A stretch of 64,000 nucleotides of DNA from contig NZ_RBWV01000011.1 of the NCBI RefSeq assembly GCF_003634695.1, positions 1 through 64,000 of the forward strand, read 5' to 3'. Position numbers and translations under genes: made by a program. The notes below the pieces were generated by a model that saw only the letters and a list, made by a program, of their open reading frames with translations, was not told where the DNA came from and searched no databases. This stretch comes from Motilibacter peucedani (GTDB lineage Bacteria > Actinomycetota > Actinomycetes > Motilibacterales > Motilibacteraceae). Shown one piece after another: positions 36,370 through 62,628 of this stretch. Position 1 is the stretch's first letter, and each line of letters opens with the position of its first letter.

Positions 36370-36426
36370 GTTGGCACGATGTGACTCCTTGCCAATCCGA
36401 TTGGCAAGGAGTCACATCGTGCCAAC
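36370..36426. repeat. Long palindrome, copy 1 (bidirectional terminator candidate)
   Basis: Perfect 28-bp arms at 36370-36397 and 36399-36426 around one central C. The left arm begins GTTGGCACGATGTGACTCC and ends GCCAATC. A C-run (36362-36366) and a G-run (36429-36434) lie outside and can pair too. It sits between the + strand PAS gene and the - strand clpC. A nearly identical copy is at 58262-58316. Confidence 0.85.
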
Positions 36427-57078: not shown

Positions 57079-58233
57079 ATGCCCGCCGTGAGGACTCTGC
57101 GGGTGGGCGTCGGCGCGGCGACGGGGTGGGGGCCGGAGGCGGCCGACCTCGTGCTGCCCATCGGCCCGCAGCACCCGTCGGCCCACGGCGGGCTGCGGCT
57201 GCACCTGCGCGTCGAGGACTCCGTCGTCGCGGCCGTCGAGCCCGAGGTCGGGTTCATGCACCGCGGGGCCGAGAAGCTGTTCGAGGCGCGCGACTACCGC
57301 CAGGTGATCGTGCTGGCCAACCGCCACGACTGGCTCTCGGCCTTCGCCAACGAGCTCGGCATCGTGCTGGCCGCCGAGCGGATGCTGGGCATGGAGGTGC
57401 CGCCGCGGGCGGTGTGGGCGCGCACCGCCCTGGCCGAGATGAACCGCGTGCTCGGCGCGCTGATGTTCCTCGCCAGCCCGCCGGACCCTGCGCGCCCGGA
57501 GGGAGACACGGTCACCGACCCCGCGGTGCTCGCCCTGCGCGAGCCGCTGCAGCGGGTGCTCGAGGCGGTGTCGGGCGGCCGGGTCCACTTCATGCTCAAC
57601 CGCGTCGGCGGGCTGAAGGAGGACCTCCCCGAGGGCTGGCTGCCCGAGGCGGTGCACGCGCTGGAGGACGTGCGCAGCGGCCTCGACGCCGCGTGCGCGG
57701 TCGTCGCCGCGCCGGCGTTCCGCGACCGGCTGCGCGGGCTGGGCGTGCTGACGCGGGAGGACGCGCTGACCTACGGCGTGAGCGGGCCGGTCGCCCGCGC
57801 GTCGGGGATCGACGCCGACCTGCGGATCGACGCGCCGTACCTCGCCTACGGCGAGCTGGAGGTGCCGCGCACTCGCCGGGTGGAGGGCGACGCGCTCGCG
57901 CGCTGGGAGGTGCTCGCGGAGTCGGCGCGTACGGGTCTTGACCTCGCGCTCGCGGCGCTGGCCCGCGTGGAGCCGGGGGAGTTCGCGGTGCGGCTGCCGA
58001 AGGTGCTCACCGTGCCCGAGGGCACGGCCTACTCGGTGACGGAGAACCTGCTGGGGCTCAACGGCTACTACCTGGTCTCGCGCGGCGGCAAGGTGCCGTG
58101 GCGGCTGAAGCTGCGCAGCGCGTCGTTCGGCAACGTGCAGGCGCTCGAGGCGCTGCTGCCTGGTACGCCGGTGGCTGAGCTCGTGCCGGTGCTGACCTCG
58201 CTCTTCTTCATCACCGGCGACATCGACCGCTGA
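57079..58233 (+). CDS. nuoD: Solo NADH-quinone oxidoreductase NuoD-type subunit
   Basis: 384 residues of the complex I 49-kDa family: [45 protein letters not shown] at the end. No Ni-binding CxxC pairs, so it is of the complex I rather than hydrogenase type. No other nuo gene is in the window, so this is a second stand-alone NuoD as known in some Actinobacteria. The Arg after GPQHPxxHGGL is the position I expect NDUFAF7-type enzymes to methylate. Role in a partial or alternative complex is unknown. Confidence 0.88.
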
Positions 58234-58261: not shown

Positions 58262-58316
58262 TTGGCACGATGTGACTTCTTGCCAATCAGATTGGCAAGG
58301 AGTCACATCGTGCCAA
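58262..58316. repeat. Long palindrome, copy 2 (bidirectional terminator candidate)
   Basis: 27-nt arms at 58262-58288 and 58290-58316 around a central A; the only irregular pair is a T58278-G58300 wobble. Sequence equals copy 1 at 36371-36425 except two bases (58278 and the centre). Outer CCCCCTG (58253-58259) and CAGGGGG can extend the stem. It lies between the + strand nuoD-like gene and the - strand binding-protein gene. Confidence 0.85.
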
Positions 58317-58340: not shown

Positions 58341-59417
58341 CTAGGACGCGGAGGTGAGGCCGCCGTCGGAGCTGAAGACGAGCCCGAGGCTGACCTTGCC
58401 GGTCTTGAGGGCCGTCATGGTGAGCGGGCCACCGGCGTCGAGCGCGGTGAAGGAGTCGAACTTCAGCCCGTAGCTCGACTCGAGGCCGGGCTGGCAGAAC
58501 GGGCGGGTCGGGCACTCCGGCGGGCCGCCGAGCACCAGGCCGGAGCCGCACTTCGCGGCGAGGTCGGACAGCGTCTTGACGCCGTTGGCCTCGGCGAAGG
58601 CGGTGGTCACCGCGAACGCGTTCTGGTCGGCCGCCTCGGCCGGCTTGCCGATCGTCAGGCCGACCTTCTTGGCCAGCGGGGTCAGCGCGGCGACCGTCTT
58701 GTCGAGGTCGGGGCTGGCCAGCGCGGTGGCCTTGGGGCCGTTCTGCGCCTTGTTGATGAACTCGGTGAGCGTGCCGACGTACTCCGGCACGACCTGGATC
58801 TGGCCCTTCTCGAGCGCGGCGAGGTAGACCTCGCGGGCGCCGATGGTCTGGGTCTTGGCCTTGAAGCCGGCCGCGTCGAGGACGGCGGCGTAGATCTCGG
58901 CGACCGTCTGGTTCTCGGCGAAGTTGGCGGCGCCCACCGTGATCGATCCCGAGCCGCCGGAGAGCCCGCTGTCGAGGCCCTTGTCCTTGACGTAGGCCTT
59001 GGCGACGTTCGGCGAGGTCTTGCGCTCGGCGCTGACCTGGCGGTTGAGCGAGACCAGGTCGTCGGTCGTCAGGACCGAGGACACCTTGTCGAGCGCTGCG
59101 GTCAGCGCCGGGGTGGCCGCCTTGGCGTTGATCGCCGGGACGATGTTGTCGACCGTCTGCAGCTTCTTGTCGTCGGTGAGGACGACGAGCTCCTTGCCGG
59201 CGACCGGCTTGCAGTCGGCGGTGCCGCCCGCGGGAGCAGCCGACGCGTCAGTGCTGGCGCCGCCGCTCGAAGCCGAGCTCGACGCCGCGCTCGGGGCGGC
59301 CGCCGAGGAGGCAGGCGCACCGCCCGAGCCGCTGGACGATCCAGAGTCGCCGCAGCCGGCGAGCAGCATGCCGCTCGCAGCGAGCACTCCCGCCGCCAGT
59401 CCAAGTCGTGTGCGCAT
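58341..59417 (-). CDS. Osmoprotectant ABC transporter substrate-binding lipoprotein, circularly permuted OpuAC fold
   Basis: A 358-residue lipoprotein: lipobox LLAGC with Cys22, then a Ser/Ala linker to about 68. Residues 75-148 (VVLTDDKKLQTVDNIVP, KVSSVLTTDDLVSLN, VAKAYVKDKGL) correspond to the C-terminal end of normal OpuAC proteins, yet they come before the usual N-terminal half (GSITVGAANFAENQTVAEIY from 157). The chain stops at LGLVFSSDGGLTSAS, just where the normal protein would run on into the VLxDDK segment. It should bind glycine betaine, choline or a similar compound. GAGGACC precedes the ATG. Confidence 0.88.
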   Translation of the reverse strand: MRTRLGLAAGVLAASGMLLAGCGDSGSSSGSGGAPASSAAAPSAASSSASSGGASTDASAAPAGGTADCKPVAGKELVVLTDDKKLQTVDNIVPAINAKAATPALTAALDKVSSVLTTDDLVSLNRQVSAERKTSPNVAKAYVKDKGLDSGLSGGSGSITVGAANFAENQTVAEIYAAVLDAAGFKAKTQTIGAREVYLAALEKGQIQVVPEYVGTLTEFINKAQNGPKATALASPDLDKTVAALTPLAKKVGLTIGKPAEAADQNAFAVTTAFAEANGVKTLSDLAAKCGSGLVLGGPPECPTRPFCQPGLESSYGLKFDSFTALDAGGPLTMTALKTGKVSLGLVFSSDGGLTSAS

Positions 59418-59571: not shown

Positions 59572-60015
59572 TCAGGGTACGACCGTGACCGGCCAGCGCC
59601 CGGCCCGCACCAGGCGCACGGCCAGCGACCCGACGATCCGGTGCCCCGCGCTCGCGGAGGCGCCGACGACGACGGCGTCGGCGCGTACCTCGTCGGCGAT
59701 CCGCGAGAGCTCCGTGAACGCGTCGCCGCGGGCGCTGCGGAACTGCGCACGCACGCCGGCGTGCTCCGCGCCCCACTCGACCTGCTTGGCGATCTGCTCC
59801 GCGTTCTCGTCGAGCGTCGCCTCGACGACGCCGATCGCGCCGGGCACGAGGCCCGCCATCGCCATGCCGCCGACGACGTGGACGACGAGCAGCTCGGCGC
59901 CCTGGCGGCGCGCGAGGCCGGCCGCGTAGGCGCCGGCACGCATCGAGGTGGGCGAGCCGTCGATGCCCACGACGATGATGGTCGGGCCGTCGTTGCCGAG
60001 CTCGAAGCCGTTCAC
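59572..60015 (-). CDS. Universal stress protein (UspA) family
   Basis: A 147-residue single UspA domain: IIVVGIDGSPTSMRAGAYAA at the start and DAVVVGASASAGHRIVGSLA near the end. The ATP-binding motif Gx2Gx9G(S/T) is partly degenerate (GASASAGHRIVGS), so ATP binding is uncertain. The GTG is coupled to the permease stop by 4 nt, so it belongs to the osmoprotectant operon and might sense or report stress there. Confidence 0.88.
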   Translation of the reverse strand: MNGFELGNDGPTIIVVGIDGSPTSMRAGAYAAGLARRQGAELLVVHVVGGMAMAGLVPGAIGVVEATLDENAEQIAKQVEWGAEHAGVRAQFRSARGDAFTELSRIADEVRADAVVVGASASAGHRIVGSLAVRLVRAGRWPVTVVP

Positions 60016-60752
60016 GCGCCGGACGCGGCGAGCGCCGGGTCCTCCGGCGCCTCGGCCAGCACGGCGGCAGCCCGCCGCCGGCGGCGCGGCGGGCGCAGGC
60101 TGGCCGGCGTCAGCGACCGCTGCAGCCCGGCGAGGCCGAGCTCAGCGACGACCGCGAGCAGCGAGACGAGGAGCCCGCCGGCGAGGGTCTCGCCGTAGTC
60201 CTGCGTGCTGAAGCCCTCGTTGATGATCGTGCCGAGGCCGCCGCCGCCCACCAGCGCGGCCAGGGTCGCGGTCGCGATCACCTGCACCACAGCCGTACGG
60301 ATGCCGGCGGCGACGAGCGGCAGCGCCAGCGGGAGCTCCACCCGGCGCAGCACCTGCCCGCCCGACAGGCCCATCGCCGTCGCGGCCTCGACGAGGTCGG
60401 GGTCCACCCCGCGCATGCCGACGTAGGCGTTGGCGAGCACGACGGGCGCGGCGAACAGCGCGAGGGCGATGACGGTCGCCCGGTCGCCGAAGCCCACCGG
60501 CGTCGAGACGAGGATCGTGAGCACCGCGAGCACCGGCACCGCACGGGAGACGTTGGCCGCCGCGACCGTGAACGCGCCGCCGCGCCCGAGGTGGCCGAAG
60601 CCGATGCCGAGCGGCAGCGCGACGAGCGAGGCGAGCCCCACGGAGAGCCCGGTGATGCGCAGGTGGTCGACCAGCAGCTGCACGACGCCGTGCTGGCCCT
60701 TCCAGTTGAGCGGGTCGTTGAGCCAGACGACCGCGTCGTGGACGTAGCTCAC
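60012..60752 (-). CDS. Osmoprotectant ABC transporter permease (OpuBB/ProW-like)
   Basis: 246 residues, about six helices. The inner-membrane ABC loop is EAATAMGLSGGQVLRRVELP. A WLNDPLNWKGQHGVV N-terminal segment typical of OpuBB/OpuCD precedes the first helix. Second of two permeases, coupled to the first by a 4-nt GTGA overlap. Confidence 0.93.
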   Translation of the reverse strand: MSYVHDAVVWLNDPLNWKGQHGVVQLLVDHLRITGLSVGLASLVALPLGIGFGHLGRGGAFTVAAANVSRAVPVLAVLTILVSTPVGFGDRATVIALALFAAPVVLANAYVGMRGVDPDLVEAATAMGLSGGQVLRRVELPLALPLVAAGIRTAVVQVIATATLAALVGGGGLGTIINEGFSTQDYGETLAGGLLVSLLAVVAELGLAGLQRSLTPASLRPPRRRRRAAAVLAEAPEDPALAASGA

Positions 60753-61414
60753 GAGCGCCCCCTCGCCCAGGGCGTGACCGCCCGCGAGACGCCCAGCAGC
60801 AGCAGGTCGAGCACCAGCGCGAGCGCCACGCACAGCAGCGAGTTGGTGAGGATCTCGGCCCGGTAGAAGTTGTTGTTGAACCCGCGCAGGATCAGCTGGC
60901 CGAGCCCGCCGTAGCCCACCACGACGCCGACGGTGACCAGCGCGACCGTCGAGACGGTGGCCAGCCGGATGCCCGCCATGACCGCGGGCATCGCGATCGG
61001 CAGCTCGACACGCAGCAGGACGCGCAGCGGGCCGTAGCCCATGCCGCGGGCGGCCTCGCGCACGTCGTCGGGCACGGCGTCGAGGCCGGCCAGGGTGTTG
61101 CGCACCAGGATGAGCAGCGCGTAGAGGACCAGCCCGATCAGCACCGTGCGCGACCCGATGCCGGTGTAGGGCGCCAGCAGGGCGAACAGCGCCAGCGACG
61201 GGATCGTGTAGACCACTCCGGAGAGCCCGATCACCGGCGCGCGCAGCACGCCGAAGCGTCGTGCCAGCATCGCCAGGGGCACCGAGACGAGGGTCGCCAC
61301 GACCACGGTTTCGAGGGTCAACGTGACGTGGTGCTCGAGAGCGGTGAGGATGTCCGTGCGGTTGTCACGCACGTAGCCCCAGTCCAGCCACGGGTTGGGG
61401 GCGGAGGAGGCCAC
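60749..61414 (-). CDS. Osmoprotectant ABC transporter permease (OpuBB/ProW-like)
   Basis: 221 residues, about six helices; ABC loop EAARGMGYGPLRVLLRVELP and FNNNFYRAEI towards the end. Pairs with the other permease as a heterodimer. The GTG start at 61414 is supported by TAGCGT 6 nt upstream (leaderless). First gene of the minus-strand part of the transporter; the ATPase is divergent. Confidence 0.93.
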   Translation of the reverse strand: MASSAPNPWLDWGYVRDNRTDILTALEHHVTLTLETVVVATLVSVPLAMLARRFGVLRAPVIGLSGVVYTIPSLALFALLAPYTGIGSRTVLIGLVLYALLILVRNTLAGLDAVPDDVREAARGMGYGPLRVLLRVELPIAMPAVMAGIRLATVSTVALVTVGVVVGYGGLGQLILRGFNNNFYRAEILTNSLLCVALALVLDLLLLGVSRAVTPWARGRS

Positions 61415-61420
61415 GGATGG

Positions 61421-61426
61421 ACGCTA
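61421..61426 (-). promoter_or_regulatory. -10 box, leaderless permease operon
   Basis: TAGCGT on the minus strand, 6 nt before the GTG at 61414. It would lie within an ATG-extended form of the divergent ATPase gene, which argues for the later ATPase start. Confidence 0.55.
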
Positions 61427-61470
61427 CCCCGGTGCGGTCGCAGACCGCCACGCCAGGCGGGGGCGACCCG

Positions 61471-62628
61471 ATGATCCAGCTCGTCGGCGTCGGCAAGAGG
61501 TACGCAGACGGCACCGACGCGGTGCGCTCGCTCGACCTCTCGGTCGACCGCGGCGAGCTCGTCGCGCTGGTCGGGCCCTCGGGCTGCGGCAAGACCACGA
61601 CGCTCAAGATGGTGAACCGCCTGATCGAGCCGAGCAGCGGGCGCATCCTGCTCGACGGCGACGACGTCACGAAGGTCGAGCCCAACGGCCTGCGCCGGCG
61701 CATCGGCTACGTCATCCAGTCCGGCGGCCTGTTCCCCCACAAGAGCGTGCTCGACAACGTCTCGACCGTCCCGCTGCTGCTCGGCTGGGACCGCTCGAAG
61801 GCCCGCGCCCGCTCGCTCGAGCTGCTCGAGCTCGTCGGGCTCGACCCCGCCGTGCACGCCAAGCGCTACCCGCACCAGCTCTCGGGCGGCCAGCGCCAGC
61901 GCGTCGGGGTGGCGCGCGCCCTCGCCGCCGACCCGCCCGTGCTGCTCATGGACGAGCCGTTCAGCGCGGTCGACCCGATCGTGCGCGACCGGCTGCAGCT
62001 GGAGTTCCTGCGCCTGCAGGAGGAGATCCACAAGACGGTGGTCCTCGTGACCCACGACATCGACGAGGCCGTGCGGCTCGCCGACCGCATCGCGGTGCTC
62101 TCGCAGGGCGGCAAGCTCGAGCAGTACGACGCGCCCGCCACCGTGCTCGGCGCGCCGGCCACCGACTTCGTCGCGTCCTTCGTCGGCGCCGACCGCGGGC
62201 TCAAGCGGCTCTCGGTCACCGGCATCGCCGCCACCGACCTCGAGTCCCCGCCGGTCGTCTACGCCTCCGACAGCCTCGCCGCCGCCGAGGAGACGCTGCG
62301 CGGCGAGGGCGCCGCCTGGGCGGTCTGCCTCGACGAGCGGGGGACGCTCAAGGGCTGGGTGGGCCTGCGTGACACGGCCGGCGGCGTCGCGACGGTGGGC
62401 GAGGTCTGCCACCGCATGGAGGCGTGGGTGCCGGCCCGCGCGACGCTCAAGCAGGCGTTCCAGGAGATGCTCCAGCACGACGCCGGCTGGGTCGCGGTGC
62501 TCGACGGCGACAGGTACGTCGGGGTGCTGACCCCGCGCACCCTCCACGAGGCGCTGCGACGCAGCGTCGACGCGGACGCCCTCGGCGTCCCCCTCGAGCA
62601 CACCGAGGTCGACAACGTCCCGAGCTGA
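61471..62628 (+). CDS. Osmoprotectant ABC transporter ATP-binding protein with CBS domains
   Basis: 385 residues from the ATG at 61471 (GGCGGGGG upstream). Walker A GPSGCGKTT, Q-loop QSGGLFPHKSV, signature LSGGQRQR, Walker B VLLMDEP, then from about residue 240 two CBS modules (PPVVYASDSLAAAEETLRGE, and MEAWVPARATLKQAFQEML). CBS domains gate Opu transporters by ionic strength or bind c-di-AMP in Firmicutes. An ATG at 61417 would extend the protein but leaves only 2 nt to the divergent permease start. Confidence 0.93.
   Translation: MIQLVGVGKRYADGTDAVRSLDLSVDRGELVALVGPSGCGKTTTLKMVNRLIEPSSGRILLDGDDVTKVEPNGLRRRIGYVIQSGGLFPHKSVLDNVSTVPLLLGWDRSKARARSLELLELVGLDPAVHAKRYPHQLSGGQRQRVGVARALAADPPVLLMDEPFSAVDPIVRDRLQLEFLRLQEEIHKTVVLVTHDIDEAVRLADRIAVLSQGGKLEQYDAPATVLGAPATDFVASFVGADRGLKRLSVTGIAATDLESPPVVYASDSLAAAEETLRGEGAAWAVCLDERGTLKGWVGLRDTAGGVATVGEVCHRMEAWVPARATLKQAFQEMLQHDAGWVAVLDGDRYVGVLTPRTLHEALRRSVDADALGVPLEHTEVDNVPS

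Follow-up and report, generated by a model that had tools for sequence, protein, structure and literature searches.

The substrate-binding protein (SBP) encoded at positions 58341-59417 of the window, by which we mean the whole 64,000-nucleotide stretch of Motilibacter peucedani DNA analysed here, is a true circular permutant of the OpuAC/ProX fold, as confirmed by domain matches, rotation of the sequence and the copy number of its parts. We consider it likely that this is a functional, lipid-anchored SBP of an OpuC/OsmF-type importer, which was permuted once, in place, and was later probably stapled by a disulfide bond. The gene, its parts and its neighbours are listed in Table 1.

Table 1. 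The permuted SBP gene, its parts and the neighbouring genes, in window coordinates.
Feature	Position	Strand	Basis
Circularly permuted OpuAC/ProX-type substrate-binding lipoprotein, 358 aa	58341..59417	-	Intact ORF, Pfam, rotation
Signal peptide and lipobox LLAGC (residues 18-22), lipidated Cys22	59352..59417	-	Sequence
Ser/Ala/Gly linker, residues 23-68	59214..59351	-	Sequence
Cys69	59211..59213	-	63/65 permutants; DSSP strand 67-68 (AF2 model)
Old C-terminal part, residues 75-148, now N-terminal; lobe I	58974..59195	-	PF04069 187-256; AfProX 200-273
Junction linker, residues 149-157, fusing old C- and N-termini	58947..58973	-	Canonical relatives start/stop here
Old N-terminal part, residues 158-353, now C-terminal	58359..58946	-	PF04069 2-182
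Cys290, lobe II loop TLSDLAAK-C-GSG-LVLGG; predicted partner of Cys69	58548..58550	-	64/65 permutants
ECPTRPFC motif, Cys302/Cys308, probable second disulfide	58494..58514	-	Each in 64/65 permutants
Universal stress protein (Usp) gene, between permease 2 and SBP	59572..60015	-	PF00582
Permease 2	60012..60833	-	PF00528; synteny
Permease 1	60749..61414	-	PF00528; synteny
ProV/OpuCA-like ATPase with CBS domain, divergent	61417..62628	+	PF00005, PF00571; TIGR01186 just under cut-off
nuoD-like gene, conserved neighbour marking the slot	57079..58233	+	PF00346; synteny

An earlier note on this DNA had proposed that the OpuAC halves occur in reversed order, in one copy each, and the searches bear this out. 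The order of the PF04069 matches is swapped, with residues 158-353 corresponding to profile positions 2-182 and the preceding segment (window 58986-59192 on the minus strand, approximately residues 76-144) to positions 187-256. When the halves were swapped back in silico, PF04069 matched as one stretch, 2-256, at 154.9 bits compared with 140 for the unrotated protein (gathering cut-off, 21.2 bits). Similarly, the rotated sequence aligned with Archaeoglobus ProX (AfProX; 1sw1) over nearly its full length in one stretch (4-275 to 7-273, E 5.7e-20), and the unrotated protein aligned in two stretches, out of order. The homology of residues 75-148 to the OpuAC C-terminal region, on which the proposal turned, is thus established by both PF04069 and AfProX. 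The protein comprises the full PF04069 domain in an order other than the canonical N-to-C one and is accordingly filed as a permuted variant. A profile search of the M. peucedani genome recovered a single copy of each permuted piece and no second or frameshifted copy downstream, such as would have spoken against permutation; the only other PF04069 protein, encoded on another contig, has the canonical order and belongs to a different subfamily (L001:1336-2337). Single-copy parts, rotated order, joined old termini and full-length homology upon rotation together define a circular permutant. An artefact of assembly, frameshifting or gene prediction is practically inconceivable and was rejected, given that many independent assemblies, with 84 ORFs between them, show the identical order, the ORF is intact and there is no second copy. 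The new N-terminus has indeed been fitted with a lipobox and a Ser/Ala linker, as had been suggested, and also includes Cys69. The signal peptide with its lipobox qualifies the 358-aa protein as a bacterial lipoprotein, and a simple pattern detects a lipobox in all 82 permuted ORFs checked.

The permuted form is present in 5 of the 39 other genomes searched as relatives, with the canonical form in most of the others that had a match. A scan of GTDB species genomes yielded 80 loci; sorted by the order of their parts, the ORFs comprise 84 permuted, 24 canonical and 3 partial ones (a few genes are counted twice). More than 75 relatives of M. peucedani carry the swapped-order protein, including members of Motilibacter, Demequina, Cellulomonas, Actinotalea, Isoptericola, Krasilnikoviella and Luteimicrobium, as well as Actinoplanes, Micromonospora, Asanoa, Plantactinospora and others. 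The survey of homologues envisaged in the earlier note thus revealed a common break point, which is identical across all permuted ORFs. The recurrence of these ORFs in many genomes leads us to reject a one-off oddity; several actinobacterial families have the permuted order as their standard form. In trees built with the parts in canonical order and with Cys69 and Cys290 omitted, the permutants form one clade nested among canonical relatives (SH-aLRT support of 95 in a quick tree; 99/95 in a careful tree), and in the careful tree L039 is the basal permutant (support 99/95). Nei-Gojobori dN/dS values of 0.05-0.22 across six species pairs indicate that the permuted protein is under purifying selection. 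As for the suggestion that the permutation arose through duplication, the permutation itself holds and a tandem-duplication origin is plausible, with no tandem-duplicated intermediate seen among the loci examined.

The genomic context points to rearrangement of a resident gene. Two permeases and a ProV-like CBS ATPase adjoin the SBP, the arrangement of an OpuC/OsmF-type ABC importer; against the OsmF equivalog NF049931, the protein scores 74.1 bits, well below the curated cut-off of 400. The slot consists of the divergent ATPase, permease 1, permease 2, the SBP and the convergent nuoD-like gene. In sister lineages, it is occupied by canonical orthologues (L180, L183, L184, L185 and L193), and in L189, L190 and L191 by the permuted SBP. 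Since canonical orthologues of sister lineages reside in the identical slot, the gene was rearranged in place and the transporter was kept. The ATPase and both permeases are retained at most permuted loci whose contigs extend far enough.

Several other features of this region deserve mention. In same-genus and same-family loci, the gap between the permease and SBP genes is too short for the Usp gene. The stand-alone nuoD-like gene (57079-58233), which has a NuoD-family paralogue at another site in the genome, adjoins this ABC transporter in many actinobacteria. A near-perfect 55-bp palindrome, with 27-nt arms and a 1-nt centre, lies between convergent genes at 58262-58316 and again at 36371-36425. 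Its 16-nt end has 27 exact matches in the genome (none for the reversed control), and the palindrome resembles a dispersed repeat of the hairpin or terminator kind.

In type II SBPs, two crossovers connect the lobes, and the lobe assignments made here follow the general architecture of these proteins. A single rearrangement within the resident locus, in a shared ancestor of several actinobacterial lineages, best explains the data. In it, the old termini, which both lie in lobe I, were joined via a short Gly/Ser linker, and the chain was cut between GLVFSSD (lobe II) and LVVL (lobe I), at the second inter-lobe crossover, so that the backbone now connects the lobes just once. The protein would otherwise be an ordinary Venus-flytrap binder, presumably delivering its ligand to the two permeases.

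The lost connection may have been restored by two cysteines. Cys69 sits eight residues ahead of the new first strand, and Cys290 occupies the loop that connects helix TLSDLA to strand LVLGG. The two residues co-occur: among 65 aligned permutants, C69 is found in 63 and C290 in 64, with L039 lacking both and L106 having lost C69 and kept C290; the pair is absent from the canonical relatives inspected. In the AF2 model of the window protein (mean pLDDT 95.2, pTM 0.91), DSSP assigns short strands to residues 67-68 and 290-292 (7-8 and 230-232 in model numbering), neither of which is present in the AF2 model of L039 (pLDDT 93.7). The models suggest that the new N-terminus pairs with the Cys290 loop, except in the cysteine-less L039; if the two strands pair in an antiparallel manner, C69 would face C290. 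Co-occurrence and the predicted strands lead us to infer that, subsequent to the permutation, a disulfide between C69 and C290 was acquired. Both cysteines would have arisen after the basal branch, an order read from one MAG, L039, the sole permutant without either, and the set would form an ordered series from canonical through permuted without cysteines to permuted with cysteines. The disulfide would most likely staple the N-terminal tail to lobe II, and the membrane anchor with it, and so give back the second covalent link between the lobes that the permutation had cut. We further infer that the anchor shifted to lobe II and that this brought a functional benefit. An altered hinge, which the earlier note had raised, is a reasonable expectation, in that the break severs an inter-lobe crossover for which the conserved cysteine pair probably substitutes.

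The family contains other cysteines as well. C302 and C308 of the ECPxRPFC motif are also present in close canonical relatives. In L082, both are replaced together (EFPERPFG), and this joint loss suggests that they form a bond of their own. L013 and L014, both of canonical order, have a different extra cysteine near domain position 24, and L013 has a further one in its lipoprotein linker (SLCGG), perhaps another way of stapling the anchor segment.

A phylum-wide search uncovered a second type of permutant, of order N2-C-N1, in which the mature chain begins with LVLGGPPECP and ends with LSDLA (L147:3100-4105, L148:6698-7685, L149:6099-7224, L153, L154 and L145). Of 24 genomes from another class, 6 encode it, with an operon of its own, and its members are also lipoproteins. 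Its break coincides with the loop in which the window type has Cys290. A common origin of the two types was rejected (the forced clade lowers logL by 155; AU p 2e-26); within the second type, single versus several origins gave an AU p of 0.29. B. subtilis OpuAC (2b4l), which we take to be a lipoprotein, is likewise swapped relative to L001 and to L. lactis OpuAC, and its break maps, within alignment resolution, to the Cys290-equivalent loop. Two independent permutations thus appear to start at this loop, and a third, that of the window type, appears to be stapled to it. It is possible, and we offer it tentatively, that there has been recurrent selection to anchor the membrane-tethered SBPs of this family at one spot on lobe II, with three permutations converging there and a disulfide taking the place of a crossover in the present case.

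The rearrangement could instead be neutral, having been tolerated and spread by descent with anchoring and hinge unchanged, and with the cysteines merely steadying a frayed end. We regard this as conceivable but rather doubtful. A single origin followed by inheritance accounts for the distribution, the synteny is unaltered and the permeases are the same; permuted periplasmic binding proteins can also remain functional, as shown by Treponema TpMglB-2, which binds glucose normally (PMC4990184). Neutrality fits less well, however, with retention of the cysteine pair over deep divergence, and the breaks of an independent permutation and of B. subtilis OpuAC at the C290 loop amount to convergence beyond expectation. 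We favour an in-place permutation that was probably followed by stapling.

The description of the protein as osmoprotectant-binding stands as a family label only. The aromatic cage and carboxylate site of AfProX, which we take to be formed by K13, Y63, T66, Y111, R149, Y190 and Y214, is just partly kept. Y63, T66 and R149, together with D109, are retained as Y213, T216, R305 and D264, and A164, N266 and V89 stand in place of K13, Y111 and Y214, respectively (mostly V, S or T at position 89 among the permutants); Y190 falls outside this mapping, its equivalent probably being F348. With K13, Y111 and Y214 not retained, it is uncertain whether betaine is the ligand. These replacements, along with the Usp gene inside the operon of the window, could be read as signs that the protein has left substrate uptake for another role, such as sensing or regulation. 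Such a departure seems improbable to us: the SBP stays beside its permeases at most loci, Y213, T216, R305 and D264 are kept, and the motifs are common to close canonical relatives.

It is uncommon for a natural circular permutant to have unpermuted orthologues that occupy the same chromosomal slot. The before-and-after series allows a test of whether SBP evolution is driven by tether position or by hinge connectivity, and the permutants offer a natural template for engineered permuted SBP biosensors. Their existence is also of practical concern, since order-dependent annotation splits or under-scores permuted proteins.

Comparison with known systems places the protein close to ProX. The best Foldseek matches are AfProX structures (1sw1/3mam), with TM-scores of 0.4-0.56 that cover the larger half only, Foldseek being order-dependent. 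AfProX, OpuCC, EgtUC and OsmF/YehZ share the same fold and family, with AfProX the best match in both sequence and fold, but all have the canonical order and lack the Cys69/Cys290 pair; AfProX also lacks the ECPxRPFC cysteines, and its cage residues differ from those of the permutant. B. subtilis OpuAC is also a circular permutant when compared with L. lactis-type OpuAC, although it belongs to another subfamily and its break is not at the SSDGG/LVVL crossover as in the window protein. A PLoS One 2010 paper on L. lactis OpuA makes no mention of permutation. Treponema TpMglB-2 (Tp0684) is a circularly permuted, lipid-anchored SBP as well, but it has a type I sugar-binding fold and a different break, with no disulfide staple described in the text consulted; its authors consider that tethering may favour the permuted topology (PMC4990184). 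Neither this break point nor the staple, nor the in-place orthology, is described in the open-access literature searched. The second actinobacterial permutant shares the OpuC-type family, the operon type and the permuted lipoprotein form with the window protein but differs in its N2-C-N1 order, its break in loop 290 and its independent origin. Permutation in OpuAC proteins is itself already known, CPSARST having detected such relations between glycine-betaine-binding proteins, 2b4l, 1r9l and 1sw1 among them (PMC2395249), whereas the break point, the staple and the convergence look new.
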